From the NCBI RefSeq assembly GCF_963678185.1, contig NZ_OY782757.1:434001-498000 (forward strand): DNA of 64,000 nucleotides. Direction: 5' to 3'. A program made the position numbers and the translations under genes. The stretch's first letter is position 1. The number at the start of each line of letters is the position of its first letter. Shown here one piece after another: positions 4,857 to 20,063 of the stretch. This DNA is from an uncultured Tolumonas sp. Its GTDB lineage: Bacteria > Pseudomonadota > Gammaproteobacteria > Enterobacterales > Aeromonadaceae. A model generated the notes under the pieces. The model made no database searches, had not been told where the DNA came from, and was given only the letters and a program-made list of their open reading frames with translations.

Positions 4857-6365
4857 TCAGATAACACAAGCTTTGTTGCGTCCATTGAGTTTTGCGTCAT
4901 ATAACGCTTTATCTGCAAAACGGAGTAGTAGTTGTATATTATTTTGCTGTTCATTCAGAGAGGTGACTCCAATCGAAACGGTATAACGGATAGGCATATC
5001 ATGTTCTGGAAAGAAAACAGCATTAGCAATTGCTCCTCGCAAGCGTTCTGCTACTTGGAAAGCGGGTTGAGTTGCTGTTTGCGGTAACACGACTGCAAAT
5101 TCCTCACCACCGATCCGGCCTATAATATCTATTTCTCGCAGTGTGTTGCGACAAATGTCACTTAGCGACTGAATAACCAAATCCCCTATATGGTGACCGT
5201 AATTGTCATTAATTTTTTTAAAATGGTCGATATCCAGCATGAGTATTGACAGTTCTCCGCCATACCGTTGTGATCGCAATAATTCATGTTCTGCTAATTG
5301 CATGAAATGTCGCCGATTGGCTAATCCGGTGAGTGGATCGGTTTGAGCTAAGCGTTTCAGTTCTTTTTCGACTTTTTTACGTTCAGTGATGTCTTGAATA
5401 ACACCAAATAAAATACGGTGCTCTCGATCAAAGGTTGCTTGGGAGTAAATATCTTTGATTTCATGGGTGTCCGCTGTACGAATTTGGTATTCAAGTTCAT
5501 AAGGAATATCATGTAAAAGAAGATTATTCAGACTAGCATCCAATTTAGGGCGATATTCAGACAGGGCCATCCCTTGGATAGCCGCCAGATCAAACTTATC
5601 GCTATCAAGACCATAGATCTTTGTTGCACCTAGTGACGCGAATATAACTTGTGCATCCAAATGCAGCTCCCAGTTTCCTGTTTTGGATGCTAATTCGGCC
5701 CTGTTTAGACGAGCTTCATTTAACCGGGTAACTTCATCGATCTGTCTCCGAACGACAAGCTCTTCATTACTAATTTCGGGGGATACTAAAAAAAACCGAA
5801 GGCTAGGTTTAATGGCATTCAAGCAATCATCGGCATTGCCACCATGGATCACCGCTTGTCGATAGCCGACATAATACAGTGACCAGATCCCAATACAGCG
5901 GGCAAAGATGTCATCCAGACCTTCCTCTGCCATCCAGTCGGCTACTGGCTTTACTAATTGACTGACTTGTTCGACGACTCGGCACTCGTGTTCTTTAGAC
6001 CACATCCAGCCAAATGCAGCGCCAACAGAACGGATCGGTAAATACTGAATATCCAGGCTATAGAGTTGTTTCAAATAAGAGCAAATGCGATCAAAGAGTG
6101 TTGTTCCGCTGACCTGTGAATAGAGTCTTGGCAATTCAGCGATCTGTTCGGTATTCAATGCGATGATGACTTCAGCGAGTATATCCGCTTTACTCAGATC
6201 AAGCCGATACACCTGAACAGGTTGCTTGCCAACAGCGCGAGCAATATCACGCATACCCACAGCTTCATAACCATATGTCATGAAGAGTGTTTTAGCCGCA
6301 TCCAATACCTGCTCTCTTAACGAGTCTGCTTTTTTTGTTAACACAGTGGCTTCATCCAAATACAC
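4857..6365 (-). CDS. TetR-like / PAS / GGDEF diguanylate cyclase fusion
   Basis: A 502-residue protein joining three modules. Residues 15-65 form a TetR-type helix-turn-helix (VLDAAKTLFMTYGYEAVGM, then DIARAVG), followed to about 195 by a TetR-like helical ligand domain. Residues 215-330 form a PAS domain ending in GVIQDITERK. Residues 335-502 form a GGDEF domain with the active site GGEEF at 419-423 and an intact inhibitory site RxxD at 410-413, five residues upstream. It should make cyclic-di-GMP with product inhibition. A DNA-binding head on a cyclase is unusual: it may be a ligand-sensing or DNA-localised cyclase. The start is GTG at 6365. No ATG exists before the HTH, so the exact start is uncertain. 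Confidence 0.88.
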   Translation of the reverse strand: MYLDEATVLTKKADSLREQVLDAAKTLFMTYGYEAVGMRDIARAVGKQPVQVYRLDLSKADILAEVIIALNTEQIAELPRLYSQVSGTTLFDRICSYLKQLYSLDIQYLPIRSVGAAFGWMWSKEHECRVVEQVSQLVKPVADWMAEEGLDDIFARCIGIWSLYYVGYRQAVIHGGNADDCLNAIKPSLRFFLVSPEISNEELVVRRQIDEVTRLNEARLNRAELASKTGNWELHLDAQVIFASLGATKIYGLDSDKFDLAAIQGMALSEYRPKLDASLNNLLLHDIPYELEYQIRTADTHEIKDIYSQATFDREHRILFGVIQDITERKKVEKELKRLAQTDPLTGLANRRHFMQLAEHELLRSQRYGGELSILMLDIDHFKKINDNYGHHIGDLVIQSLSDICRNTLREIDIIGRIGGEEFAVVLPQTATQPAFQVAERLRGAIANAVFFPEHDMPIRYTVSIGVTSLNEQQNNIQLLLRFADKALYDAKLNGRNKACVI

Positions 6366-6604
6366 TTAATCAGAATGTAAACGTGTTAACGTTAGGCGTC
6401 AAATGTCAGTTTTAATATTGCAGAGAAACTCTGCTGTAAAGGGTGTTAATGCGATGGATGAATGTGGCTGTTTTGGGGGGCGGCCAGGTATTACTTACCG
6501 GAAATAAAACACCAAAAAGCAACCTTCGTGGGATGAATTGTCTTCAGAGTTTTTTCTGCTTACAAAGATGGTCTGTCACTTAAATCTCTATTTTTCACTT
6601 TCGT

Positions 6605-6630
6605 AGAAAGGCTACGAATGCAGCCTTTCT
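6605..6630 (-). terminator. intrinsic terminator after pyruvate formate-lyase
   Basis: A perfect 9-bp stem (AGAAAGGCT with AGCCTTTCT) with an 8-base loop, 18 bases past the pfl stop. The downstream side on the minus strand is A/T rich without a clean U-run. Confidence 0.65.
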
Positions 6631-6647
6631 AATGATGTATTAACGCA

Positions 6648-8930
6648 TTAAATTGAATTCGTAAATGTTCGGGTAATAACGTCTTGCTGTTGTTCACGAG
6701 TCAGTGAATTGAAGCGAACGGCATAACCAGAGACTCGGATTGTTAGCTGAGGATATTTCTCTGGATGATCAACTGCATCTAACAACATCTCTCTATTCAA
6801 CACGTTGACGTTAAGATGCTGCCCACCCTCAATACTCTCTTCATGATGGAAATATCCATCCATCAATGCAGCAAGATTAATTTTTTGAGCATCAACCTCT
6901 TTGCCGAGGGCATTAGGCACGATGGAGAATGTGTAAGAGATACCATCTTTGGCATAAGCAAACGGCAATTTAGCCACTGAGGTTAACGAGGCCACGGCTC
7001 CTTTTGTGTCACGGCCATGCACGGGATTTGCCCCTGGGCCAAACGGTGCACCAGCACGACGACCATCCGGTGTATTACCGGTTTTTTTGCCATATACCAC
7101 ATTCGATGTAATCGTCAAAACCGATTGAGTTGGCACCGCTTTGCGATAGGTCGTTAATTTTTGAATTTTTTGCATAAATTTAGAGACTAAATCGCAGGCA
7201 ATATCATCAACCCGAGGATCATTATTGCCAAATTGAGGGTATTCACCTTCCACCTGAAAATCGACGATGAGATCATTTTCATCGCGGATCGGTTTAACTT
7301 TCGCAAATTTAATGGCCGACAATGAATCGGCTACCACCGATAAGCCAGCGATACCGCAAGCCATGGTTCGAAAGACATCCCGATCCATCAAGGCCATCAG
7401 TGATGCTTCATAACTGTATCGATCATGCGAATAATGAATAATATTTAAGGCGGTTAAATATTGCTTCGCAAGCCAATCCATCAACATGTCAAAACGCGGC
7501 ATGACGTCGTCAAAACTTAAATATTCCGAGGTCACTTTAGGAATGTCAGGGCCGATTTGTACCTTTAGTTTTTCATCAAATCCGCCGTTGATGGCATACA
7601 GTAATCCTTTGGCTAAATTGGCTCTGGCGCCAAAAAACTGCATGTGTTTACCGACAATTTGTGGGCTCACACAACATGCAATTGCATAGTCATCATTATT
7701 AAAATCAGAACGCATCAAATCGTCATTTTCATATTGGATTGACGAGGTATCAATGGAGACTTTAGCTGCAAATAATTTGAAGGGGGCTGGCAATTGTTCT
7801 GACCAGAGAATGGTTAAATTTGGCTCTGGAGCAGCCCCCATATTGTATAGCGATTGCAAATAACGGAAGGTTGTCTTAGTTACTAACGTGCGGCCATCAG
7901 TGCCCATTCCTGCCATGGATTCAGTAGCCCAAATCGGGTCGCCGGAGAACAGTGAGTCATATTCAGGCGTTCTCAGGAAACGAACCATGCGTAGTTTCAT
8001 GATGAAATGGTCGACCAGTTCCTGCGCTTGCACCTCAGTGATCACGCCGTTTTTCAAATCACGATCAATAAAGACATCAAGGAAGGTCGAGGTGCGACCC
8101 AACGACATGGCAGCACCATTTTGTGATTTTACAGCAGCCAGATAACCAAAATAGGTGAACTGAATGGCTTGTTGAGCATTGGTTGCCGGTGATGACATAT
8201 CAACGCCATAAACCAGCCCCATGCGGCGAATGTCTTCTAAGGCATGAAGTTGATCGGCCAACTCTTCGCGTAATCGCAGCGACTCTTCGACACTCGTGCC
8301 TGCTTCTAATTCAGCTTGGGTTGAATCATATTGTTTTTTCTTATCTTTGATCAGTATATCAATGCCATAGAGTGCAATTCGGCGATAGTCACCGATGATC
8401 CGCCCACGACCATATGCATCGGGTAATCCGGTGATGATGCCCGATTTACGGCAGGCCATAATTTCGGGGGTATATAATTCAAAGCAAGCTTGATTGTGTG
8501 TTTTACGGTATTCGGTAAAAGTTTTTTCTACACCGGGATCCAGTTCACGCCCATAGACTTCGCATGATGTCTTGACCATCCGAATGCCGCCATTGGCAAT
8601 AATGCCTCGTTTCAGTGGGGCATCGGTTTGGAGACCCACTATTTTTTCTAATGTTTGATCAATATAACCAGCGCCATGCGAGGTGATGGTGGATGGCAGG
8701 TCGGTATCAAAATCAATCGGCGCATGTGTCCGGTTTTCTTCTTGAATACCGAGCAGAACCTTATCCCAGAGTGTCAGTGTTGATGCTGATGGCCCAGCTA
8801 AAAAAGACTCATCACCGGTATAAGGTGTGTAGTTTTTTTGAATAAATTCTCGTACATCGACTTCAGATTGCCATGTCCCTTCAGCAAAGCCTTGCCATGC
8901 GTTGTTTGAGACTTCATAGGTGGTTTTCAT
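6648..8930 (-). CDS. pflB: formate C-acetyltransferase (pyruvate formate-lyase)
   Basis: A glycyl-radical enzyme that converts pyruvate and CoA to acetyl-CoA and formate in the anaerobic cytoplasm. It has 760 residues, the same as E. coli PflB. The catalytic Cys pair is in [11 protein letters not shown] (about 418-420). The radical Gly735 is in RVSGYAVRF near the C-terminus. No activase gene (pflA) and no focA lie nearby, so activation must come from elsewhere. The start ATG follows GGAG. Two copies of the operator shared with acuR and acuI lie upstream (8969-8985, 9098-9114), suggesting control by AcuR. A 2-ketobutyrate formate-lyase (TdcE-like) role is possible, since TdcE is close in sequence. 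Confidence 0.93.
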
Positions 8931-8968
8931 GAAATAACTCCATCGTATATGAACGTAAATTGCGAAAT

Positions 8969-8985
8969 ATAGACCGACCGTCTAT
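8969..8985. promoter_or_regulatory. AcuR-type operator upstream of pfl (proximal)
   Basis: ATAGAC-CGACC-GTCTAT, 39 bp before the pfl start codon. The arms form a perfect 6-bp inverted repeat around a 5-bp centre. It matches three other copies in this locus, so it is the likely binding site of the TetR-family protein encoded at 9296. Confidence 0.8.
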
Positions 8986-9097
8986 TAATTGATAAAAAAT
9001 TTTCCCATTCTCAATTTGGCCAAATGTCTACTCATATGAATCACAATTTCATCGTCACGATGGGATGTGGAAAGACTGGCTAATGGAAATGGCATTT

Positions 9098-9114
9098 ATA
9101 GACTGATCGTCTAT
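9098..9114. promoter_or_regulatory. AcuR-type operator in the pfl-acuR intergenic region (distal)
   Basis: ATAGAC-TGATC-GTCTAT, a perfect match to the arms of the proximal pfl site. It lies in the middle of the 365-base divergent region, which otherwise holds no gene. Confidence 0.8.
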
Positions 9115-9269
9115 ATAATTGCGACACAGTAGAGAGATTTAACCTTACAGTCAATAGGACTTTAGTTTTTTGATGGACTCATCCCACATCAGTCGCACTA
9201 AAAATTTTGCAAAATTCACATTTGTTTTGTATCAAAAAGCCGCCGAATTGATAAGATAGCGAGAGAGAT

Positions 9270-9286
9270 ATAGACGATTAGTCGGA
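9270..9286. promoter_or_regulatory. AcuR-type operator overlapping the acuR leader
   Basis: ATAGAC-GATTA-GTCGGA. The left arm is perfect and the right arm is partly degenerate (GTC kept). It ends 9 bases before the acuR start, fitting autorepression. It is weaker than the other three copies. Confidence 0.65.
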
Positions 9287-9295
9287 AATTAAGTC

Positions 9296-9928
9296 ATGAG
9301 TGAAAACACGGTCGTTACACGGCGGGGGCGGCCCCCTAAAAAGAATGCTGAAAGCGAAGATATCCGCGCCATGTTAATTCGCAGTGGCACGGTCGCTTTG
9401 ACGGAAAATAGCTTTGCTACCGTGGGTATCGATGGCATTTTACGTTCAGTCGGGGTTCCTAAAGGCTCGTTTTATTATTACTTCGAGAGTAAAGAGCATT
9501 TCGGATTAGCGGTGCTGGATAGCTACGCGGGTTACTTTGCACATAAGTTATCTAAAACGATGGGCAATAAAACACTGCAACCGCTGGATCGCATTACTGC
9601 TTTTCGGGACAGTGCGAAAGAAGGGATGGCCCGTTATGACTACAAGCGTGGTTGTATCGTGGGCAATCTTGCCCAAGAAATTGGCGTATTACCTGACGTA
9701 TTCCGAGATAAATTGAAAGGCATTTTGGATGCATGGCAAGCGGTCGCCCGTGAGTGCCTTAATGATGCCATCACTGACAATTCGATAAATGCGAGTGCCA
9801 ATACGGCCGAGTTGGCCGAGTATTTTTGGACGGGCTGGGAAGGTGCCGTCATGCGGGCAAAATTACTGGCAAGCCCAGAACCATTGGATATTTTTATTAA
9901 ACACTTTTTAGCGGGATTGCCCCGCTAA
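9296..9928 (+). CDS. acuR: TetR-family regulator, AcuR type
   Basis: A 210-residue repressor. A basic RRGRPPKK tail precedes a TetR HTH at about residues 45-68, with VPKGSFYYYFESKEHFGLAV typical of the recognition helix and following turn. The ligand domain carries GMARYDYKRGCIVGNLAQEI and FWTGWEGAVMRAKL, which I recognise from AcuR, the acrylate-responsive repressor of acuI in DMSP- and acrylate-using bacteria. Its neighbour is acuI, as expected. An operator overlaps its own leader and three more flank it. A strong terminator overlaps its stop codon, so acuI is transcribed separately. What is known (AcuR) and what I infer (control of pfl) should be kept apart. Confidence 0.85.
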   Translation: MSENTVVTRRGRPPKKNAESEDIRAMLIRSGTVALTENSFATVGIDGILRSVGVPKGSFYYYFESKEHFGLAVLDSYAGYFAHKLSKTMGNKTLQPLDRITAFRDSAKEGMARYDYKRGCIVGNLAQEIGVLPDVFRDKLKGILDAWQAVARECLNDAITDNSINASANTAELAEYFWTGWEGAVMRAKLLASPEPLDIFIKHFLAGLPR

Positions 9929-9936
9929 TTTTTTTA
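9910..9936 (+). terminator. intrinsic terminator overlapping the acuR stop codon
   Basis: Stem AGCGGG / CCCGCT with loop ATTGC, followed by AATTTTTTTT. The TAA stop of acuR lies at the base of the stem. It separates acuR from acuI. Confidence 0.88.
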
Positions 9937-9943
9937 TAATTAA

Positions 9944-9960
9944 CTAGACGATCAGTCTAT
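9944..9960. promoter_or_regulatory. AcuR-type operator in front of acuI
   Basis: CTAGAC-GATCA-GTCTAT, arms matching the pfl operators at 11 of 12 positions. It ends 11 bases before the acuI ATG, where a bound repressor would block the promoter or start region. Confidence 0.8.
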
Positions 9961-9971
9961 ATTGAGGCGTT

Positions 9972-10958
9972 ATGTATAAAGCTATTGTCGTGAACAAAGA
10001 CCCTGCGGGTTATCACTGTGAACTTGAAATAGTAGAGGAAGAAACCTTACCGCAAGGGGATGTCACGATCCAAGTGCACTATTCATCATTGAATTATAAA
10101 GATGGGTTAGCGATTTCCGGTAAAGGGCCGATCATCCGCCAGTTTCCAATGGTACCGGGGATCGACCTGACAGGCACGGTTCTCAGTTCTGAATCATCTG
10201 CTTTTTCAATCGGTGATTCTGTCATATTGACCGGCTGGGGCGTTGGTGAAAAACACCCCGGTGGGTTGGCACAAAAAGCCCGCGTGAATAGTCAGTGGTT
10301 AATTAAAAAACCTGACACAATCACCATGCAGCAGGCGATGGCGGTCGGAACGGCAGGTTTTACGGCGATGCTGTGTGTGAATGCGTTGGAAAAACAAGGC
10401 GTAACCCCAAAGAAAGGCAGTGTTCTTGTGACGGGGGCGAATGGTGGTGTTGGTGCTTTTGCTGTGAGCTTTCTCTCTCGGCTTGGCTATCAGGTCGTTG
10501 CCTCAACGGGTCGTCCAGAAGAAAGCGATTTTCTTATCCATGATCTCGGCGCGAGTGAAGTGATCAATCGCGCTGAACTGGCACAACCCGGTAAGCCATT
10601 GCAAAAAGAGCAATGGGCAGCGGTGATTGACACCGTGGGTAGCCATACGCTAGCTAATGCGTGCGCGAGTGTTATCTATGGCAGTGTAGTGGCCGCCTGT
10701 GGCATGGCTCAAGGCATGGATCTTCCTGCATCCGTTGCGCCATTTATATTACGAGGCGTCACACTGGTTGGTGTCGACAGTGTCATGTATCCGCAAGCAG
10801 AGCGTCAGGCGGTGTGGGAACGGATTGCAAGTTTAGTCGATGAAAATCTGCTCAACAAAATTTGCACTACCGTTTCGCTGGGGCAAGTGAAAGAAATGGC
10901 GGCGAAATTACTGGATGGCAAAGTGCGTGGTCGAGTCGTCGTAGACTGCCAAGCATAA
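9972..10958 (+). CDS. acuI: acrylyl-CoA reductase (NADPH), AcuI/YhdH family
   Basis: A 328-residue medium-chain dehydrogenase/reductase that reduces acryloyl-CoA to propionyl-CoA, removing a toxic electrophile. Family marks are YSSLNYKDGLAISGKGPI and FPMVPGIDLTGTV in the catalytic domain, and the nucleotide-binding VLVTGANGGVGAFAVSFL (about 153-171). No zinc-binding Cys cluster is present, as expected for the YhdH/AcuI branch. The start ATG follows GAGG. An operator lies immediately upstream and acuR is adjacent, which supports AcuI over a generic quinone reductase. Confidence 0.9.
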   Translation: MYKAIVVNKDPAGYHCELEIVEEETLPQGDVTIQVHYSSLNYKDGLAISGKGPIIRQFPMVPGIDLTGTVLSSESSAFSIGDSVILTGWGVGEKHPGGLAQKARVNSQWLIKKPDTITMQQAMAVGTAGFTAMLCVNALEKQGVTPKKGSVLVTGANGGVGAFAVSFLSRLGYQVVASTGRPEESDFLIHDLGASEVINRAELAQPGKPLQKEQWAAVIDTVGSHTLANACASVIYGSVVAACGMAQGMDLPASVAPFILRGVTLVGVDSVMYPQAERQAVWERIASLVDENLLNKICTTVSLGQVKEMAAKLLDGKVRGRVVVDCQA

Positions 10959-11370
10959 ATATACCGAAATCATCCGGCTGACAGCTTTCTGTGAGCCGGA
11001 TATAGATATAGTTAAGATGATCACCTCCGCTGTATTGCCAAAGTAAACGAAGCAGCGAAAATACTGATGAGTTAGCTAGGAATTAGTGAAATTACAGCGC
11101 TCGGAATGTTGGCAATCATCGTTTCGTATTTGAAATGGGGGGCATTATCGGAATGTCTCTCTGGTTACGATCTGACATCAATAAATCGTGTATCTCGTGA
11201 TTTTTTGTCAGAACCCATACAAAGTCGGTTTAGAGTCTGAATAATAGTTTTTCAACTCGCCGGTTTTTTTGTCCTGTATCCCCGACTTACAATTTCGTAG
11301 CTAAACTTCTGGATCAGATATAAATACGCCTGCCATTTTTCAGATTTATTACACAGATGAGGCTCTGCCC
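10959..11370. other. intergenic region with one hairpin
   Basis: 412 bases with no gene. A stem-loop at 10972-11001 (ATCCGGCT with AGCCGGAT, extended by ACAG/CTGT) lies 14 bases after acuI and probably ends its transcript, although the U-tract is poor. The remainder looks like spacer DNA. Confidence 0.5.
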
Positions 11371-12198
11371 ATGATAAAAACAGAACAGGTACAGGAGTAT
11401 AAACAAGGAATTGCACGATTCTATTCGCAGCGTAGCCAATCCTACGATGACAGTGCGTGGCACGACAAGATAGCCCGTAAGCTGGTTGACTACTCAAATA
11501 TAGCTGTTAATTCTAAAGTCCTTGATATTGCAACGGGAACAGGAATGGTGACGTTCTATGTCGCTACTAAGTTAGGTCCACATGGCTCAGTAATTGGGAT
11601 AGATATTGCCGAAGGAATGATTGAACGGGCCAAGGCGAAACTGAACGATAAATCTAACCCAAACGTGCGATTTGAGATTGGTGACGGGGAGGACCTAGCG
11701 TTTCCCCCCCATACCTTTGATTACATTTTTTGTAGTTCAGCGTTGATCTGGATGGCTGACCTAAATGCTGCACTGAGTCACTGGCGGACAAGGCTGCGTC
11801 CTAACGGAAGGGTCGGCTTTCATGCTTTTTCGGAAAATGCTTTTGTGACAGGGACAGTGGCACAATCAGTGCTATCAAACTTCGGCATATCGTATTTGAT
11901 GAGTCAACCGACGGGAACTCCAGAAAAATGTCGCGCATTACTGACAGATGCAGGCTATAGGAATATTGAGGTGATTGTGCTGGAGGATGGTGAGTATATC
12001 AGCCTAGAAGAGGCGAAAGGTTCATGGGTTAGTGCGTCTTATCCTGCTCCAGGCCAATATCCTCATCCTCTTACACTGATGACAAATGAACAGTTGGCTG
12101 AGGCTCAAGCTGAATTCGATCGCCAGCTGGAAATATTGAATTCCCGCGAAGGTATTTGGAATGATATGACCACCTTTTGCGTCTACGGGGAAAAATAG
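11371..12198 (+). CDS. class I SAM-dependent methyltransferase
   Basis: A 275-residue methyltransferase of the UbiE/Methyltransf_11 type. Motif I is VLDIATGTGMVTFYVA (about 50-65), followed by GSVIGIDIAEGMIERAK and the acidic motif EIGDGEDLAFP. A distinct C-terminal third binds the unknown substrate. The start follows GAGGCTCTGCCC. It is bordered downstream by an IS630-type remnant whose 5' region begins right after its stop, so it may be an acquired gene. Nothing in the context tells the substrate. Confidence 0.8.
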   Translation: MIKTEQVQEYKQGIARFYSQRSQSYDDSAWHDKIARKLVDYSNIAVNSKVLDIATGTGMVTFYVATKLGPHGSVIGIDIAEGMIERAKAKLNDKSNPNVRFEIGDGEDLAFPPHTFDYIFCSSALIWMADLNAALSHWRTRLRPNGRVGFHAFSENAFVTGTVAQSVLSNFGISYLMSQPTGTPEKCRALLTDAGYRNIEVIVLEDGEYISLEEAKGSWVSASYPAPGQYPHPLTLMTNEQLAEAQAEFDRQLEILNSREGIWNDMTTFCVYGEK

Positions 12199-12287
12199 GT
12201 CGGCGACCATCAGATGGTGTTGATTCTATTATGCAACAGCAACGAGCAACTACGCTGCACAACCGCCCCCAAAACCGAGTTATATCA

Positions 12288-13045
12288 ATGTTACCAGTTT
12301 TATCTCGTGCCGAACGCAGACGCATTGAAAAAATTATTCATAAAACCAGTGATAAAGAACACGCGCGGCGTTTGACTGCCATTTTAATGTTACATCAGGG
12401 GCAAACCGTGTCAGTTGTTCATCAGCTAACTGCCGCAGCGCGTTCTTCTATTCAGCGTTGGATTAGCTGGTATCAATAGTGCGGTATATCTGGACTCGAA
12501 AGTAAACAGCGAGGGCGATTTTGTTCTTTGCTATACCAACAGATCCGACTCATTCTTTAGCTGCTTATTCAGTTTTCGTCTGAAGATTTTGGTTATCAAC
12601 GCTCTCGTTGGAGTTCAGCACTTTTTGCATCACTTATTCATCGTCTGTGTCCAGAACACAATATTGCCGCTTCAACCATTCGCCGTTGGTTACCTAAAAT
12701 GGGCATTCTCTGGCGCTGGCCTGCACCGACACTCCATATTCGAGACCCGCACCGCGATGAGAAAATAGCATTCATAAACAATGCATTACAACGGCATTCT
12801 GTTGATGAACCCGTTTTTTATGTTGATGAAGCAGATATTGACCTGAATCCTAAAATTGGTGCGGATTGGATGCGTTGTCATCAACAAAAACGCATTCCTA
12901 CACCAGGAAAAAACGAAAAACACTATGTTGCTGGCGCGCTGAATAGTCAGACGGGCAAAGAAAATTATTCTGGTCCTTGATAATTACGTGATCCATAAAA
13001 GCCAAAAAACGCAAATATGGCGCAAGAATAACCCGAAATTCGAAT
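12288..13045 (+). pseudogene. IS630-family transposase remnant
   Basis: Broken pieces of an IS630/Tc1-type DDE transposase. The first piece (12288-12479) has the N-terminal HTH (LSRAERRRIEKIIHKTSDKE) and stops early. A middle part is readable only in other frames. The piece at 12699-12980 carries VFYVDEADIDLNPKIGADWM with the first catalytic Asp. Past its stop, another frame continues with ILVLDNYVIHKSQKTQIW, the second catalytic Asp region, then the sequence ends abruptly where homology to the hsd-linked gene copy begins (13077). There are at least two frameshifts plus a truncated 3' end. No terminal inverted repeats were identified. Confidence 0.85.
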
Positions 13046-13076
13046 TGCTTGATTTCAAAATAAGAATATGATTGCA

Positions 13077-13624
13077 GTAGGTCATTGTGACACATTCTAT
13101 GATTTGCATTCTCATTGCATTGAAGAAATAGAACCCGAATTTAACAGTGAAAAACTCAATTACTCTGGTAAAATCAATTCATTACTCTATATAGATATAG
13201 ATATAAAAGCATTTTTAAAAACCAGTAAGTTTGGCAAAAGAGTGACGTTTGATTATCTCAAAACCCGACAGGGTGCCAAGGCTTATTCCATTATCAATAA
13301 CCTGAATAGTAATAAATTTAAGAAATTCAACATCTTAATCATTGATAAAGTAACTGAAGCGGTTAAATCACAACTCGACCAGTGGATCACGCAGATAACG
13401 AGTTTAAAACAAAACAATGAATTCGATAAATTCAGCATCAAAGAGAATGAGCTGTTATACGCCAGCACGAACATTATGTTAAATAGGCTGTCATTTTTTC
13501 AATCATATGAGCAGGAATACTTACTGAATAGCAGGCACAAGAACAACGTTGAGGAAGACTATTTATTACACAGAACTGTAAAGGTGATGATTTGTTCGGC
13601 TTAGTAAAGCAATACACATCTTGA
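13077..13624 (+). pseudogene. truncated, frameshifted copy of the hsd-operon fourth gene
   Basis: It encodes a degenerate version of the 281-residue protein at 23224-24069 in the opposite orientation: both have TFYDLHS, SEKLNYS, KFGK, TFDYLKTRQGAKAY, and NEFDKFSIKEN. About 95 N-terminal residues are missing, replaced by the IS630 remnant. Near the end a frameshift at about 13580 separates the copy from its natural C-terminus; the alternative frame ends in LFGLVKQYTS and TGA at 13622-13624. It forms the outer part of the left arm of the inverted repeat around the prophage. Confidence 0.85.
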
Positions 13625-13788
13625 AAACCAGATAACAGCACAAGCAGTGAGAGCACGATATTCCGTACTGTGATGAAAACTAAAGCTCCGCATCAGCAAT
13701 AAACCCAGTCACAAGCGCACGCTATAATAGTCATCCAACTCCAAACTCAGCGAGCACTAAAAATCTAAAATTTTCTTGCAAACCAGAT

Positions 13789-13852
13789 CGCGCTACGTGA
13801 AAAAGTGAAGAGAACCATAGCCAATTCTTTAAACTTTTCACGTAGGAGCGCG
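13789..13852. repeat. palindromic repeat element, copy 1
   Basis: A 64-base imperfect hairpin with arms CGCGCTACGTGAAAAA and TTTTCACGTAGGAGCGCG, a 3-base bulge and an asymmetric inner loop. Copies in this window are at 22991-23054 (inverted relative to this one) and 47177-47238 (more diverged). Confidence 0.75.
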
Positions 13853-13966
13853 TTAGTGGAAACTGGATGGGCAAGAATACAGTTTTATCGGAAAAATACA
13901 GTTCTGTATTGGAAGTCCCAGCAAAAGACACACAGTGCATATAAGTTTTAGTAACTCAAATAGTTA

Positions 13967-14078
13967 ATTTCGCATAATAACCCCCGCGTTATGTTAAATA
14001 CTGGCGCGGCAAAATATCAATGGCCGCGCCACTGCGAGGGGACTGAGTGTTTTTAATATAACGGGCATTATGCGAAAT
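13967..14078 (+). other. left attachment site with CTX-phi-like folded attP
   Basis: Site 1: XerC arm ATTTCGCATAA (13967-13977), an 11-base centre TAACCCCCGCG, and XerD arm TTATGTTAAAT (13989-13999). Site 2 is inverted: TTTTAATATAA, centre CGGGCA (14062-14067), and TTATGCGAAAT (14068-14078). Read as single strand, sites 1 and 2 pair to make one long forked stem, with an inner GC hairpin between them (GGCGCGGC with GCCGCGCC, about 14003-14030). This is the CTX-phi arrangement, in which folded plus-strand DNA is the XerCD substrate. Confidence 0.88.
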
Positions 14079-14531
14079 CTCGTTATTATTTGTTTCTAAT
14101 ATTAATAAATTAATTTACTCGTTATTTTTGTTTATGTGTTTTTTGTCGTTTCGTTATTTAAATCAAATTTCATGACCGCACAAAAAATAAGAATTTATTG
14201 TTTCTGGAATTGGGAAATTAATTCAGAAGTTGGGGGTCAGGCGGAAAACACCCCGCCAGTAATACGGGGTGAAAACCCTTATTAACTTTCTGATTCTGAT
14301 AAATTAAATATACAAATCTATAAATTTGAAAAAATATTATTCCACCACTATTGACTGCATTTTGTATCAATGATCTAATACTCTCATGCCGTGGAAATTG
14401 TATTCCATGACATTCCCGCTAACGCGGCTAAAATTTTTTGATTGCTCTTCGGAGCTTAGGATTTTTCGAAATAGTTTTTGTCACCTGATTTTTTCAGGCG
14501 ACTCGAAATCATTCTATGCGCCGAGGGTCAC
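14079..14531. other. phage intergenic region with candidate replication-origin hairpin
   Basis: No gene. A stem-loop at 14249-14271 (CACCCCG with CGGGGTG, 9-base loop) stands in otherwise A/T-rich DNA upstream of rep. It is a candidate plus-strand origin or signal, but no nick site can be assigned by eye. Promoters for the early genes presumably lie in 14340-14500. Confidence 0.45.
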
Positions 14532-14747
14532 ATGAAATTTTTCATCTATTATCAATACGAAACTGACGGGAGCCTCACATGGTTCCATCCGCTTGTCGGT
14601 TTTTGTGACTCCCCATCGCTGACCAGCCTGTATGCCGAAATCGCCCTCGAATTTGGCGATAATTTTGATCTCTGCGAGTGTTTGACCGATTTTTGCGATC
14701 TGCGTGATCGCGGGTTCCTCGATTACGAAATCGGGGGTGCTGTATGA
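14532..14747 (+). CDS. inovirus hypothetical protein upstream of rep
   Basis: 71 residues, acidic and Cys-rich (DLCECLTDFCDLRD), with no family recognised. The ATG at 14532 follows CCGAGGG, a good ribosome site, which favours it over the longer frame. Its TGA overlaps the rep ATG as ATGA, so the two are translationally coupled. A regulatory or replication accessory role would fit the position but is a guess. Confidence 0.7.
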   Translation: MKFFIYYQYETDGSLTWFHPLVGFCDSPSLTSLYAEIALEFGDNFDLCECLTDFCDLRDRGFLDYEIGGAV

Positions 14748-16174
14748 GCGCTCAGCACACAAAAATCGATTATTTCACCGCTGTTTTTTCACTGCCGCTG
14801 CTGTCTGACGTCGCTAAAAATTGCGCAGATTTGCAGTATCTAGCATCAAATCCTTCTTATGAAATCGCTGTTTTTCTGCATGATGCACATGTTGTTGCAT
14901 ATAAACGTCATATCAAAAAAACTCGTCGCGATTTTTCTGATATCGCAAAACGCGCTGCCGCTGCGCAGCAAATTTTCACAGAAATCATCGGTCACGACCG
15001 GCCGCTTCAGTGGCAATCTGCGCCCTCCGCCGCGCTGGAGCAGTGCTCTCGCGGAAAACTGCAAAAAGAATTCACTCAGAAAACGCTTGAAATGTTGATG
15101 CCGTTTTTTGGCGGCGAGGCTGAGCTGAACGAGCTTTTTCTCGATTGCATTATCGTTTCGTTGTCAAAAATTTATGGAAAAAACTGGGAAATCAACCGCC
15201 GCGCCGGCAAAAAATTCTTTTACGAAAACTGGGGCGAGCTGACGCTCGACGGCATGCCTGCCGGTCTTGTCGCGTGGGATTTTAAAAATATGGGCGCCAT
15301 GTTTTCACTCAGCGGGGCCGGTTGTAACTCCACCGATTTTCGGCGTGTTCATCGACTGCTGACTCACGACGATATGTCGATTTTTAAACCTAAAATTTCT
15401 CGTGTCGACATCGCTATGGATGATTTGACCGGCGAAAAAATAAGCTATCAAAAAATGCGGACCCACGCGATCAGCGGGTTGTTTACACCGGCGCGCGGTG
15501 CATCACCACGTTATAGTGCAATCGAGTCCGGCCATGTTGTTATCGGTCGATACAATCGTGAAAAGGGCATTTTAGAGCCCCACACGAAACTTGATTTCTT
15601 TCCTGATCGCGGTTGTTCGTTGTATGTCGGCTCTCGTGAAAGCGGCAAAATGTGTCGCGGATACGAAAAAGGGATTCAGATGAAATCTGAGGAGTTCCCG
15701 CGTTGGTTTCGTGTCGAGTATGAGTTGCGTGCCGTTGATCGCGTTTTGCCTCCTGAAATTCTTCTCAATCACGACCGATTTTTCTGCGGCTGCTCTGCCG
15801 CGGCCGCGCGTATTTTTAGTGATGTTACTGATGCTCAAGCCGAACCCGTGCATATTTTGACGTTCCGCGCGCAGGTTCACGCGGGTGTTGAGCATGTCAA
15901 AAAATTTGCCGCCCTGCAGGCTGCTCGCGTTGTTGTCTGGATGCGTGAGGTCGAGGAGATGGGGGATACCCAGATCGTTGATTTTCTCATCGCGCGACTA
16001 GATGGCCGCTGCGAAAAAGATCGAATTCCGAAACGGCTGGCCGTTCCCGTGCCGTATTCGTCGCTCCCGCGTCGCGGCCCCGATCCTGAAAACCGACCGT
16101 CATCAAAAACCACAAATCCGGTGCTAGTTGAGACCAAAACACTAAACGACTTTTTTGCTGCACTGACAGCGTAG
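14744..16174 (+). CDS. rolling-circle replication initiator (Rep_trans/RstA-like)
   Basis: A 476-residue phage replication protein that should nick the double-stranded form at the plus origin. It carries the Rep_trans pattern GCNSTDFRRVHRLL, then ISRVDIAMDDLTG (about 216-229, with the paired acidic residues), SLYVGSRESGKMCRGYEKG and WFRVEYELRA. This is the same layout as RstA of CTX-phi and Rep of other dif-integrating inoviruses. It is somewhat longer than RstA, with an N-terminal extension of about 100 residues. It is coupled by ATGA to the gene before it and followed 9 bases later by the likely ssDNA-binding protein. Confidence 0.85.
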   Translation: MSAQHTKIDYFTAVFSLPLLSDVAKNCADLQYLASNPSYEIAVFLHDAHVVAYKRHIKKTRRDFSDIAKRAAAAQQIFTEIIGHDRPLQWQSAPSAALEQCSRGKLQKEFTQKTLEMLMPFFGGEAELNELFLDCIIVSLSKIYGKNWEINRRAGKKFFYENWGELTLDGMPAGLVAWDFKNMGAMFSLSGAGCNSTDFRRVHRLLTHDDMSIFKPKISRVDIAMDDLTGEKISYQKMRTHAISGLFTPARGASPRYSAIESGHVVIGRYNREKGILEPHTKLDFFPDRGCSLYVGSRESGKMCRGYEKGIQMKSEEFPRWFRVEYELRAVDRVLPPEILLNHDRFFCGCSAAAARIFSDVTDAQAEPVHILTFRAQVHAGVEHVKKFAALQAARVVVWMREVEEMGDTQIVDFLIARLDGRCEKDRIPKRLAVPVPYSSLPRRGPDPENRPSSKTTNPVLVETKTLNDFFAALTA

Positions 16175-16183
16175 GAGATTCAA

Positions 16184-16489
16184 ATGAGCAATTTATTATC
16201 AGGTGTTATCGTCAATCGTGTCTACAAAATGTCCGGCATTTCCAAGGCTGGGAGTCAATATAGTCTTGCTCGTCTTGAGTACCTGATCCCCGCACGAGGA
16301 TTTTCCAATGAAAAAACTACAATAGTTTCAGTCGGTTACGATCTGCGTGAAATTACAGTTTCAGAGCCCGCGTTTCAATCGCTGGCAGAAATTCCATTTT
16401 TGACTCACGTCGACCTGACCCTGACAGCTGACCCGCGCGATCCGACCAAAAACGTCGTTTCTGGCTGGGCTCCACACGGCGACAAATAG
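16184..16489 (+). CDS. probable ssDNA-binding protein (gene V-like)
   Basis: 101 residues, predicted mostly beta, placed directly after Rep, where inoviruses carry the ssDNA-binding protein that coats the plus strand before assembly. Features are a central SLARLEYLIPARGF and an end rich in polar residues (GWAPHGDK). I do not see a strong family motif, so the call rests on size and position. TAGGAG precedes the ATG. Confidence 0.55.
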   Translation: MSNLLSGVIVNRVYKMSGISKAGSQYSLARLEYLIPARGFSNEKTTIVSVGYDLREITVSEPAFQSLAEIPFLTHVDLTLTADPRDPTKNVVSGWAPHGDK

Positions 16490-16506
16490 GTTTTAGGGGG
16501 GCGGGT

Positions 16507-16605
16507 ATGAGTATCTATAGTGCGATTATCGATTTTTACGCCATAGCCTCTGGATTTTTATACATGTTTTTCGTCGATCCGCTGATTTTTGGAGACTCCA
16601 AATGA
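16507..16605 (+). CDS. 32-residue hydrophobic protein (minor coat candidate)
   Basis: A short frame: MSIYSAIIDFYAIASG then a hydrophobic run to FFVDPLIFGDSK. It has one membrane segment, and its size equals Ff pVII/pIX (32-33 residues), the end-cap proteins. The ribosome site GGGGGGCGGG precedes it, and its TGA overlaps the next ATG (16602) as ATGA, which supports real translation. Assignment as pVII or pIX is inference. Confidence 0.6.
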   Translation: MSIYSAIIDFYAIASGFLYMFFVDPLIFGDSK

Positions 16606-16943
16606 TCATTTTTATTTCTGGTGTCTGCGGCTCAGGCAAAACCGCGCTGGCTCGCGGTCTTGTCGACATGATGAAAAATAACCATCCCGAAATTTTTTCT
16701 AATTATGAAATTTTGGGTACGAAAATCGACTCGCTGATCCCGTTTTCTGACAAAAAAAACTGTCTTTTTGTTATAGACGAGGCTCAGTCGTTTGATCTGA
16801 GTCCACTCATCAATAATGAAATTTTTGTCGGTTCAAACAAATTTTTGATTGTCTGTCAGCATGAAAAATTGCTGCCAAAAAACTTTATGCGGCTCGTCAG
16901 TGAGCGCATAACGCTGACTCGAAAAATTATCTATGAGCGTTGA
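16602..16943 (+). CDS. short P-loop ATPase resembling the Zot N-terminus
   Basis: A 113-residue protein with Walker A GVCGSGKT (7-14) and Walker B CLFVIDEAQ (54-62). The spacing and the LFVIDEAQ string are identical to those in the full-length Zot/pI of the same phage, where Walker A is also at residues 7-14. Unlike Zot it has no membrane segment and no periplasmic domain. It could be an assembly or replication ATPase, or a truncated Zot paralogue. Coupled by ATGA to the 32-residue gene upstream and overlapping the 38-residue gene downstream. GGAG precedes the start. Confidence 0.75.
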   Translation: MIIFISGVCGSGKTALARGLVDMMKNNHPEIFSNYEILGTKIDSLIPFSDKKNCLFVIDEAQSFDLSPLINNEIFVGSNKFLIVCQHEKLLPKNFMRLVSERITLTRKIIYER

Positions 16944-17049
16944 ATCATTTAATTTTTTCAGCGATCCAGTTTTTCGCGACTGGATCGTCGAAACGATCGT
17001 TTGCTGGAATCTGGCGTACGGATTTCGGCTACTGAGAAAAAATTTATAA
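16933..17049 (+). CDS. 38-residue small protein (minor coat candidate)
   Basis: Begins MSVESFNFFSDPVFRDW, then an amphipathic or weakly hydrophobic stretch and a basic end (FRLLRKNL). It overlaps the 3' end of the P-loop gene by 11 bases and lies just before pVIII, where small end-cap proteins occur in Ff phages. A membrane orientation with a basic cytoplasmic tail is plausible. No homology recognised. Confidence 0.5.
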   Translation: MSVESFNFFSDPVFRDWIVETIVCWNLAYGFRLLRKNL

Positions 17050-17085
17050 CCGCCATTTTTGGCATTTACACACGAGGAAAAAACC

Positions 17086-17328
17086 ATGAAAAAACTGAAA
17101 AATTTGGCTTTGACTGCTGCTGTCGCGGTTCTGGCATCTCCAATGGCCGCGTTTGCTGCTGATCCTACTGAGGGTGTGACCCTACTAACGGAGACCCAAA
17201 CGAGCAACATTACTACCTATATCGCAGGCTGCGGTGTCGTGATTTCTGGTGTCATGATCGCGTGGCTTGTCGTTCATTTGGGGGTCTCCGGATTTAAAGC
17301 GCTTCGCGGTGCCGCCAAGGGTGCCTAA
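17086..17328 (+). CDS. major coat protein precursor (pVIII-like)
   Basis: An 80-residue precursor. The signal peptide is residues 1-24, with cleavage after AAFA, giving a 56-residue mature protein. The mature chain has a short acidic N-terminus (ADPTEG), one membrane helix (IAGCGVVISGVMIAWLVVHL) and a small basic C-terminus (KALRGAAKGA) for DNA contact, the standard pVIII plan. A Cys within the helix is unusual. GAGGA at 17073-17077 sets the ATG at 17086. A GC-rich GNRA hairpin follows, probably limiting readthrough so that coat protein is made in excess. Confidence 0.9.
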   Translation: MKKLKNLALTAAVAVLASPMAAFAADPTEGVTLLTETQTSNITTYIAGCGVVISGVMIAWLVVHLGVSGFKALRGAAKGA

Positions 17329-17333
17329 GTAAT

Positions 17334-17351
17334 GGGGCGGGCAACCGCCCC
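17334..17351 (+). terminator. GNRA-loop hairpin after the major coat gene
   Basis: Stem GGGGCGG / CCGCCCC closed by a GCAA tetraloop, starting 5 bases after the pVIII stop. There is no U-run, so it is more likely an attenuator or mRNA 3'-end stabiliser. Ff phages carry their central terminator at the same place, between genes VIII and III. Confidence 0.7.
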
Positions 17352-17371
17352 ACATTGGAGGTCAAATTCAA

Positions 17372-17428
17372 ATGTTTCTGCTTTTTGCTATCACCGTTTT
17401 GGGTTCTTTTTGGATCTTTTTTGCATGA
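17372..17428 (+). CDS. 18-residue hydrophobic peptide
   Basis: Reads MFLLFAITVLGSFWIFFA: a single membrane-length segment with no polar residues. GGAGG lies 10 bases upstream, and its TGA overlaps the pIII ATG as ATGA. It may be a minor coat peptide or a translational-coupling leader for pIII, which has no ribosome site of its own. Confidence 0.5.
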   Translation: MFLLFAITVLGSFWIFFA

Positions 17429-18666
17429 AAAAATCTCTGACCGCCATGCTGATTGTCGCCGCCCTGACCGGTTCTTTTGGTGCATGGGCTAACGCGGCCA
17501 CAATCACGATGTCGGATGGAACCATTGCCGCGATTGATGAGTTTTTATCTATGACTGCCGCCAGAATTTCGTGGATCAAAAATGGCGTTAAATTTTCTGC
17601 TACTGCCACACTGACCCCGCTGAGATCACAAATCGCTACTGCTGCCCGCGGTGTCTTGTCTGTTACTCGAACGGGACCATGGTCAAAATTAGCTGCGGTT
17701 TCCATTGTTTCCGCGTTGCTGCTTGAGTCTGCTACTGAGTCCGGCTATACAACCACCGCGGACGGAAGCTACATAAAAATTCAATCAAACGTGGGATGGA
17801 CTATCTGCCAATCAAGTCTTTTTAACAACATAAAGGACTCAACCGACGTCAATCATTCGGGTGTTTATGCATATCTGCCGTGTGCGAATTACAATTCGGA
17901 CGGGCTTTTGTATCTGCGCACTGTCACGCCGCTCGATTCTGCAACGTTGGCCGCACTCGCTGAGAACGGTTATTCGCTCTATACGAATCCCTACTTTATG
18001 ACGTCGTGGTATCTCCGAGGGGGCTCAACTGTAGCCGAGAAGGGTTTTTATCGTCAATCGTTTAAAATCGCTGCCACCACATCAAAAACCATCGACACGA
18101 TACCCGCGGTTTCTGAGGTTGTTACCGACGATGCGTATGTCAATGCGCTCAACAATCCAGCAATTTTAAATCAAATTGCCACCGATGCCGCGGTCACTGG
18201 CGCGCTTGACGGCTATTTCGATCTTGCGAGCGTTGGCACTACAACTCGCTCAATTACCGATTTATCTGATTCGCCGAACATTTATCCGACGCCGACAGCC
18301 GGCACTACCACAGGCACAACGACCGGCACCACCGCTGGCACGGCTGCGGGTTCGACTACCATCGATGATTCAACTGCCGATTTTGATAGCCCGAATTCGT
18401 TGCAAAATTGGTCGTTTGACCTGCGGAATTATTTTTCGTTCGAGTCTCGCTGGCTGCCGCATGCGTGCCCAGATTTTCACAGCGATACCACAAAAATTCG
18501 CTGGGACAATGATTGGGCCGGAATTCATGTCGCATTTGACATCGCAGATTACATACCAGTTGATAAGTTTTGCCCAACTTTTGAGCAGATCTCTCAAATC
18601 ATTTCAAAAATTATCGCAATGTTGTTATTCATTCGAATCGCATTTCGTGACGAGGGGGTCTCATGA
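17425..18666 (+). CDS. adsorption protein pIII-like (TspB-related)
   Basis: A 413-residue secreted minor coat protein. The signal peptide is residues 1-24 (ends WANA). A long N-terminal receptor-binding region follows, then a Thr/Gly-rich linker near residues 295-312 (repeats of TTTG and TTAG), then a C-terminal domain with WLPHACPDF and paired Cys, ending in a hydrophobic anchor (ISKIIAMLLFIRIA). This is the layout of pIII and of Neisseria TspB-like inovirus proteins. The start at 17425 is coupled to the 18-residue peptide. Longer upstream starts are rejected because the signal peptide begins here. ATGA overlap with pVI. Confidence 0.82.
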   Translation: MKKSLTAMLIVAALTGSFGAWANAATITMSDGTIAAIDEFLSMTAARISWIKNGVKFSATATLTPLRSQIATAARGVLSVTRTGPWSKLAAVSIVSALLLESATESGYTTTADGSYIKIQSNVGWTICQSSLFNNIKDSTDVNHSGVYAYLPCANYNSDGLLYLRTVTPLDSATLAALAENGYSLYTNPYFMTSWYLRGGSTVAEKGFYRQSFKIAATTSKTIDTIPAVSEVVTDDAYVNALNNPAILNQIATDAAVTGALDGYFDLASVGTTTRSITDLSDSPNIYPTPTAGTTTGTTTGTTAGTAAGSTTIDDSTADFDSPNSLQNWSFDLRNYFSFESRWLPHACPDFHSDTTKIRWDNDWAGIHVAFDIADYIPVDKFCPTFEQISQIISKIIAMLLFIRIAFRDEGVS

Positions 18667-18935
18667 GTCTTTGTGGGTATTTTACTCGCACCGCGGCGGG
18701 GTCGTTTGTCACCAGAATTTTGTTATCCCTCGGCATCGGATTTCTGACTTACGCTGGATTTTCCGAGGTTTTGCAGCTCGCAATGACCAGAATTCAGTCT
18801 CTGCTCTCCGGCGTCCCGCTTGCAACGCTGAATCTCGCCGGGCTTTCGGGTGTCGATTACATCATCAACGCATTTTTTGCTGCGTATACCGCCCGCGTCG
18901 CGATGCGAGCGGGCAAAAAAATGATGGTGAAATAA
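18663..18935 (+). CDS. minor coat protein pVI-like (DUF2523 type)
   Basis: A 90-residue hydrophobic protein with three membrane segments (ILLSLGIGFLTYAGFSEVL, a middle helix, and the GVDYIINAFFAAYTARVAM region) and a basic tail (RAGKKMMVK). Its size, position between pIII and Zot, and the IINAFFAAYTAR pattern match the DUF2523/pVI family that anchors pIII in the virion tip. It overlaps pIII by ATGA and Zot by one base. Confidence 0.82.
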   Translation: MSLCGYFTRTAAGSFVTRILLSLGIGFLTYAGFSEVLQLAMTRIQSLLSGVPLATLNLAGLSGVDYIINAFFAAYTARVAMRAGKKMMVK

Positions 18936-19978
18936 TGATCAACCTGTTTACTGCCGTCCCAGGGGCGGGAAAAACACAATATGTTGTCGAAAAACTTCTC
19001 AATTTGCGACTTGATGAAGAAAAAAACGGCACAGAAAAACGAGTCATTTTTACTAATATTGCCGAGCTCGATCCAAGCCTCGGCTGCTGCGCAATGCTCG
19101 ATTTCACCGATTGGCGCATGGCTCCAGACGGCACATTATTTGTTATCGATGAAGCTCAGTATGTTTTTCCGACGCGAAATAGTTCTCAAAAAGCGCCAGA
19201 GTGGATTGAGTCTCTATCGACACATCGGCACCGCGGCTACGATTTTTGGATCATCAGTCAAAATCCAAAATTGATTGATCCGCATGTCCGTAGTCTCGTC
19301 GACGGACATTGGCACGGCTACAGGCCATTCGGCGCCCCGCACACGATCTGGAATTTTTACAACGAGTGTTGTGACAATCCAGCGTCTCGCGTCAAACCAC
19401 TGAAAGAAAAGCGAAAATTTAATCCTGAAATTTTCAAGTTTTATAAGTCGACGACCATCGATACGTATAAATCTCGATGGCCGTGGAAGCTGTTTTTGAA
19501 ATACGGCGTCATGATTTTTGTTGCCGTTTCCATGCTGGGCGGGTCGATTTTTTATATGAGGTCGTTATCGACTGGCGATATGTTGAACGATAATAAACCG
19601 TCTAAAACCGTTCCCGAGACGGCTGTTTCTCAGTCATCGACTGTAGCCACCACGACTGCCGTCGCACCGGTCAAGCCCGAGCCAAAGCAGCTGAAATATT
19701 TGGGTTTTTCGGGTTTCCAATCGTCAGATCCGAATCAAAAAATCGTGTCATTTTTGCTGTGTGAGCCGATGTCTGGCTCGAGTTCCGTCGGTCAGTTTTC
19801 GGTGCCGCAATCGTCATCTGGTGATTGCCAGATCCGAAAATTAAATGATTTTTCCAAATGGCGAATCGATGGTTCTCGAGTTTTGCTGTTTTTGTTAGAT
19901 GATGATGAAAATCCGCAATTTTTTGTGTCCAATCCAAAAATTTTACGTGATTTAGACCGCATGCAAATGCTGCCGTAG
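18935..19978 (+). CDS. zot: Zot/pI assembly ATPase
   Basis: A 347-residue inner-membrane protein powering phage extrusion. Walker A is AVPGAGKT (7-14), Walker B is TLFVIDEAQYVF (67-78), and HRHRGYDFWIISQNP is the conserved arginine-rich region (about 97-111). One membrane helix spans about 188-208, followed by a periplasmic domain that would contact the pIV secretin. The ATG at 18935 overlaps the pVI stop (TAATG). The reading frame is open far upstream across pIII and pVI, but those longer starts are not real because the Walker A motif must lie near the N-terminus. Confidence 0.92.
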   Translation: MINLFTAVPGAGKTQYVVEKLLNLRLDEEKNGTEKRVIFTNIAELDPSLGCCAMLDFTDWRMAPDGTLFVIDEAQYVFPTRNSSQKAPEWIESLSTHRHRGYDFWIISQNPKLIDPHVRSLVDGHWHGYRPFGAPHTIWNFYNECCDNPASRVKPLKEKRKFNPEIFKFYKSTTIDTYKSRWPWKLFLKYGVMIFVAVSMLGGSIFYMRSLSTGDMLNDNKPSKTVPETAVSQSSTVATTTAVAPVKPEPKQLKYLGFSGFQSSDPNQKIVSFLLCEPMSGSSSVGQFSVPQSSSGDCQIRKLNDFSKWRIDGSRVLLFLLDDDENPQFFVSNPKILRDLDRMQMLP

Positions 19979-20063
19979 CGGGTAGGCGAGGGCGAGAGCC
20001 GAGGAGTGCCGACGAGGCGCGTGCACGCGACGAACCGCCATCGCAAAATGCCGGAGATATATA

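Follow-up and report, generated by a model that had tools for sequence, protein, structure and literature searches.

Organization of the pfl2-acuR-acuI locus

The stretch of DNA analyzed here, hereafter the window, comprises 64,000 nucleotides of the 3.95-Mb single-contig genome of an uncultured Tolumonas sp. (NZ_OY782757.1; G000:C1:434001-498000). It contains a three-gene locus in which a gene for a second classical pyruvate formate-lyase (PFL) of 760 amino acids, referred to here as pfl2 (positions 6648 to 8930, minus strand), is divergent from acuR, the gene for a TetR-family repressor (9296 to 9928, plus strand), across a gap of 365 bases. Downstream of acuR lies acuI (9972 to 10958, plus strand), encoding an acrylyl-CoA reductase (NADPH). 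All three products scored above the curated cut-offs of the NCBIfam equivalogs against which they were judged, with 1257 bits for PFL2 (TIGR01255; cut-off, 994), 285 bits for AcuR (NF051457; cut-off, 247), and 522 bits for AcuI (NF051456; cut-off, 440), which bears out the identities proposed in an earlier note on this DNA.

Three exact copies of the 15-mer TAGAC-N5-GTCTA, in which N5 is the spacer, are found at these genes: operator 1 (8970 to 8984) inside the pfl2 promoter, operator 2 (9099 to 9113) between pfl2 and acuR, and operator 4 (9945 to 9959) in the acuI promoter region. The earlier note had counted four copies; the fourth, operator 3 (9271 to 9285; TAGACGATTAGTCGG), ends 10 nucleotides before the acuR ATG and has two mismatches, although it is conserved as TAGACGATTGGTCGA, with one mismatch, at the loci L145 and L225 of two related genomes. 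At these loci, operators 1 and 2 are also kept, with changes in the spacer only, and operator 4 is identical. Operator 1 is enclosed by the promoter-like hexamers TTATCA-N18-TATATT (8966 to 8995, minus strand; 9 of 12 consensus bases, spacer of 18), which form the sole promoter-like site of the region and are weak on their own (1 site versus 2.9 in shuffles), and it has the GTCTATATT join in common with operator 4. Operator 2 lies 168 nucleotides from the pfl2 start and 182 nucleotides from the acuR start and, being nearly midway between the divergent genes, may serve either of them. The assignment of two copies to pfl in the earlier note is thus imprecise.

Chance could be rejected as the origin of these sites, since positions 6000 to 11500 contain three exact copies compared to an average of 0.0015 over 2,000 dinucleotide shuffles (largest, 1); for the whole window, the corresponding numbers were 3 and 0.02 (largest, 1; 200 shuffles). 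Matches with up to two mismatches were not above chance in the window (17 versus 14.9 expected). A genome-wide scan, as suggested in the earlier note, recovered five exact sites compared to three for the reversed control pattern, so that it is their clustering and position that are unusual rather than their number. All five are intergenic and precede genes, three of them at pfl2-acuR-acuI and two at a cluster near 1.093 Mb that encodes a CurR-like regulator.

The motif is conserved at acuR and acuI across the order

To this locus we compared others from the same order, in which 74 of 394 genomes drawn carried AcuR above the cut-off. The 75 stretches read represent 73 of these genomes (the window's own being left out) and two with weaker matches, and acuR was seen at ≥40% identity in 74 of them. 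An acuI match was present at all 74 loci. Within the 250 bases upstream, the exact motif was found at acuR in 50/74, at acuI in 56/74, at both in 40/74, at either in 66/74, and at neither in 8/74. In Rhodobacter sphaeroides, TAATAGAC-n6-GTCTATTA is located upstream of acuR, and its mutation leads to constitutive expression (PMC3017554, excerpts). Because exact copies occur at 66 of the 74 loci and the R. sphaeroides acuR site is of this kind, TAGAC-N5-GTCTA is, by sequence, an AcuR-type operator, and the earlier assignment of the sites to this type holds. With a repressor above its cut-off and operators of the conserved kind (exact at 1, 2, and 4) both in place, pfl2 is probably a new member of the AcuR regulon.

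A CurR-like cluster carries the same type of site

The two remaining exact sites of the genome lie in the divergent gap between the gene for a CurR-like TetR protein (259 bits; the cut-off for CurR, 300, was not reached) and genes for a YqhD-like alcohol dehydrogenase, CurA, and a DJ-1/PfpI-like protein (L015:7600-11303, corresponding to G000:C1 ∼1.0926 to 1.0963 Mb). Of these products, CurA scored above its cut-off and the other two scored below theirs. From where these two sites lie, operators of this kind appear to serve the CurR-like regulator too, and the helix-turn-helix stretch VPKGSFY.YF is nearly the same in this protein and AcuR, so that cross-talk between the two is possible. A wider range of electrophiles might then induce pfl2 through the CurR-like protein, which would act, with or without AcuR, at the operators described above, and pfl2 would belong to a carbonyl-stress response, as the enzymes encoded in the cluster might suggest. 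We consider this unlikely, since acuR is inside the conserved unit described below whereas the CurR-like gene is outside it. Moreover, three genomes in which the unit was not found (G395, G402, and G403) have paired exact sites near a weaker CurR-like TetR match, indicating that the CurR-like regulator has targets of its own without pfl2.

PFL2 is a classical pyruvate formate-lyase without a nearby activase gene

A canonical ycaO-focA-pflB-pflA locus, each gene product above its curated cut-off, is present elsewhere in the genome, and pfl2 thus encodes a second PFL. The earlier note had named the lack of another pfl gene as one half of the outcome that would speak against it; the canonical copy (G000:C1:3601623-3603875), to which PFL2 is 75% identical, is such a gene. 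In the tree, PFL2 is sister to the second PFLs of five f22 genomes (support, 100/100) and stands apart from the canonical Tolumonas copies; the other sequences in the tree were the top-scoring matches to PFL2, together with two E. coli proteins, and its sampling therefore leans to close relatives. Given this grouping and the level of identity, recent duplication of the canonical pflB was rejected as the origin of pfl2.

No pflA homologue was detected in the window or in the corresponding units of the Tolumonas genomes G399 and G400, as the earlier note had said of the cluster, while one above the cut-off is present at the canonical locus. PFL2 is thus an additional PFL without its own nearby activase and is presumably activated in trans.

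PFL2 agrees with E. coli PflB at all 11 catalytic, radical, or pocket residues checked, which include C418, C419, G734, R176, R435, W333, F327, F432, A272, and A273 (E. coli numbers). Between two PFL2 sequences and 42 others, we counted 13 PFL2-specific positions at which at least 95% of the others agree, none of them at a checked residue. By these residues and its TIGR01255 score, PFL2 is predicted to be a classical pyruvate formate-lyase. The suggestion of the earlier note that it might be a tolerant PFL is unsupported, since the checked residues are unchanged from PflB, although other changes could still have effects.

The pairing of PFL2 with AcuI could alternatively be catabolic. AcuI removes acrylyl-CoA and yields propionyl-CoA (PMC4029986, excerpts), and PFL2 would link propionyl-CoA and formate to 2-oxobutyrate, or catalyze the reverse reaction, within an acrylate/propionate pathway. 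E. coli TdcE, which belongs to the same enzyme class, carries the annotation 2-oxobutanoate formate-lyase/pyruvate formate-lyase 4. PflB-type enzymes, for their part, may take both pyruvate and 2-oxobutyrate. However, position 272 is Ala in PFL2 as in PflB and Gly in TdcE, which is a weak indication from one residue; PFL2 groups with the f22 and Vibrio plasmid PFLs apart from TdcE (itself on a long branch); and the conserved unit consists of only three genes, none of them tdc-like. We therefore regard the catabolic explanation as improbable.

pfl2, acuR, and acuI form a conserved unit in Tolumonas

The arrangement pfl2-acuR-acuI, with three exact sites each, was found in 3 of 11 Tolumonas genomes (the window's own, G399, and G400; AcuR is 92% identical in the latter two) and was not found in the other eight, several of which are incomplete. 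Two genomes, G394 and G397, have an acuR relative and acuI with no adjoining pfl seen, the G397 contig being only 3.9 kb long. Homology of G399 and G400 to the window (first 20 kb compared) ends at positions 6647 and ∼11020 to 11025; the left neighbours of the unit are common to G399 and G400 and differ from those in the window, whereas on the right each of the three genomes has different neighbours. Since homology ends at its edges and its neighbours differ, we conclude that pfl2, acuR, and acuI with their operators are a conserved unit.

Constraint was assessed by a two-sequence comparison of the window with L145. The ratio of nonsynonymous to synonymous substitution (dN/dS) was 0.040 for pfl2, 0.062 for acuR, and 0.070 for acuI, i.e., purifying selection is strong on pfl2 and stronger than on either of the other genes. 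For the three intergenic operators, 29/30 half-site positions were identical, compared to 11/15 in the spacers and 235/323 elsewhere in the gap. The sequences of L145 and G400 hardly differ across this region and thus amount to about one witness. Such constraint on the gene and on the half-sites in the promoter gap argues against pfl2 being a passive neighbour, carried along beside acuR-acuI with AcuR control being of no use to it. The small number of genomes with the unit (three) and the interruption of pfl2 in G400 by an IS5-family element (L225:6217-7091), with the acuR and acuI frames remaining open, would be in line with that explanation, which we nevertheless hold to be very unlikely.

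Outside this unit, we saw no linkage of pfl to acuR. No pfl was present in the 75 order stretches read or beside acuR at 11 further loci from the class (two of which were only ∼3.5 kb long), and among another 80 loci, 27 of them AcuR-like at ≥41% identity, the only linked pfl was that of Tolumonas (1/80); some stretches end at contig ends, beyond which a pfl would be missed. A general pfl-acuR linkage was rejected on these counts. Likewise, no pfl was annotated in three plasmid stretches with AcuR relatives, although the gene table used for these is by design not a complete one. As for a plasmid copy of the whole unit, none of 260 matching records covered 80% of it in one place.

The operator showed the same restriction when we scanned 45 loci, comprising 3 of pfl2, 41 of other PFLs, and 1 of a distant glycyl radical enzyme (L238). 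Exact copies were present at 3/3 pfl2 loci, whereas none of the 41 other PFL loci (10 canonical Tolumonas loci and 31 from other genomes, with at most 1.5 kb on each side) had a site even with one mismatch allowed. In the open-license literature on AcuR/acuI, acrylate and PFL, and Tolumonas and acrylate, no title dealt with an AcuR-controlled pfl, which is a weak negative; formate is not mentioned in excerpts of PMC3338564.

A possible acrylate-responsive resupply of pyruvate formate-lyase

In vitro, acrylate irreversibly inhibits E. coli PFL by adding to C418, and it does so faster than methacrylate, both at 200 mM (PMC10591478, excerpts). The earlier note had named methacrylate as inactivating PFL at its catalytic cysteine, and acrylate thus does so too. 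PFL has indeed been suggested as the enzyme by which acrylate harms anaerobic E. coli (excerpts of PMC4029986, citing Kandasamy 2013 and Arya 2013), and a response of AcuR to acrylate has been published for R. sphaeroides.

Against this background, we favor, with moderate confidence, the explanation that pfl2-acuR-acuI is a self-contained acrylate-responsive resupply unit. AcuR would occupy its operators, both those within the promoters of pfl2 and acuI and that close to acuR, and keep the genes low until acrylate or a related acrylyl electrophile released it. AcuI would then clear acrylyl-CoA, while fresh PFL2, charged by PflA of the canonical locus, would replace housekeeping PFL alkylated at its catalytic cysteine by acrylate and acrylyl-CoA, so that anaerobic production of acetyl-CoA and formate could continue until the poison was gone. 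Binding of AcuR at pfl2, induction by acrylate, activation in trans, and the replacement role are all predictions from sequence. Of the two roles offered in the earlier note, a replacement or a tolerant enzyme, the former fits, because acrylate inactivates PFL at C418 (PMC10591478, excerpts), and the latter is unsupported by the residues checked.

Several observations weigh against this explanation. PFL2 shares the target cysteine and would therefore itself be alkylated, so that it could help only as a resupply or after detoxification. In G400, pfl2 is dispensable, since the insertion element lies inside it, and other carriers of acuR-acuI do without a linked pfl. On the regulatory side, operator 3 is degenerate, 8 of the 74 order loci lack an exact site in the stretch counted, and regulators besides AcuR may be involved, as the CurR-like cluster carries the same type of operator. 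Finally, the source of acrylate is not evident from the genomes: no match to PF16867 (Pfam DMSP_lyase, for dimethylsulfoniopropionate [DMSP] lyase) was found in 4 Tolumonas genomes, other lyase families not having been searched, and a control yielded weak matches in 2/14 genomes, none above the cut-off. On the basis of this one family, a DMSP lyase was rejected as an intracellular source of acrylate.

If the explanation holds, a detoxifier and a second PFL behind an acrylate repressor would provide independent evidence, from evolution, for PFL as the relevant in vivo target of acrylate, and the unit makes that question testable by removal of one gene.

Comparison with related systems

The R. 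sphaeroides acuR-acuI-dddL operon (PMC3017554, excerpts) resembles the Tolumonas unit in its AcuR-type repressor, AcuI, and inverted-repeat operator overlapping the acuR promoter. In R. sphaeroides, however, one promoter serves all three genes and the third gene is dddL, for a DMSP lyase, whereas in Tolumonas its place is taken by a pfl that is divergent and has an operator to itself, and a terminator-like hairpin precedes the separate operator of acuI; the operator spacer is N6 in the former and N5 in the latter. The hairpin (9908 to 9935, plus strand; an 8-pair stem followed by a T run) overlaps the end of acuR, is conserved in L145 and L225, and is one of 4 intrinsic terminator-like sites in the stretch, compared to 1.0 in shuffles.

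PFL2 belongs to the same class as the PFLs of E. coli focA-pflB-pflA and TdcE but differs from them in having no adjoining focA or pflA, in its AcuR-type operators, and in its separate clade. In its proposed role it would be akin to GrcA (YfiD), which restores PFL capacity after damage and which is present above the cut-off in the window's genome. GrcA replaces the oxygen-cut C-terminal part of PFL, whereas PFL2 would stand in as a complete enzyme for one damaged by alkylation of a cysteine.

The sister group of PFL2 consists of the lone second PFLs of the five f22 genomes (G178, G141, G316, G154, and G307), for which the tree supports our guess that they are Vibrio-like. It is joined, when added, by the PFL of plasmid pTHAF190c_b of Vibrio sp. 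THAF190c. We found no match to pflA, acuR, or acuI near the f22 copies, none of these is annotated on the pTHAF190c_b stretch, and no exact operator was present in the stretches scanned for either. AcuR operators were thereby provisionally rejected for the f22 copies; that of G316 has a one-mismatch N6 site upstream (L310:6175), about what chance would give for a few loci. By eye, the regions upstream of the f22 genes (L308 to L312) have in common a TGCAT-rich stretch and TTTACTCA, unlike AcuR operators. On the Vibrio plasmid, from a microplastic particle (L333:4614-8285; NZ_CP045340.1), genes for a MarR regulator and a DJ-1/PfpI protein lie beside the lone pflB.

These lone copies, forming one clade with no activase gene found adjoining, raise the speculative and rather doubtful idea that PFL2 is one example of a broader class of inducible substitute PFLs, placed behind sensors of thiol-reactive compounds, which would resupply a suicide-inhibited central enzyme on demand. 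The sensors would be AcuR in Tolumonas and perhaps the MarR regulator, with the DJ-1/PfpI gene, on the THAF190c plasmid. If true, a single natural sensor of a metabolic poison would control both target replacement and detoxification.

AcuR relatives also occur on plasmids (172 records at E ≤1e-30). The Enterobacter IncHI2A plasmid pEclE4-1 (L330; NZ_CP048697.1) is similar to the Tolumonas unit in that an AcuR relative lies beside an MDR family oxidoreductase, but no pfl is annotated and the neighbours include the formaldehyde detoxification genes frmR, frmA, and fghA. An Acinetobacter plasmid (L331; NZ_CP118964.1) likewise has an AcuR relative beside an MDR oxidoreductase, with insertion sequence genes nearby.

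Elsewhere in the window, translations inspected by eye show transposase-like pieces and then filamentous-phage-looking genes at positions 12177 to 20264, among them genes for Zot-like P-loop proteins and a replication-like protein; two frames of this region gave no NCBIfam match. On the other side of the unit, positions 4857 to 6365 encode a 502-amino-acid protein in which a TetR-type N-terminal domain is fused to a GGDEF domain.

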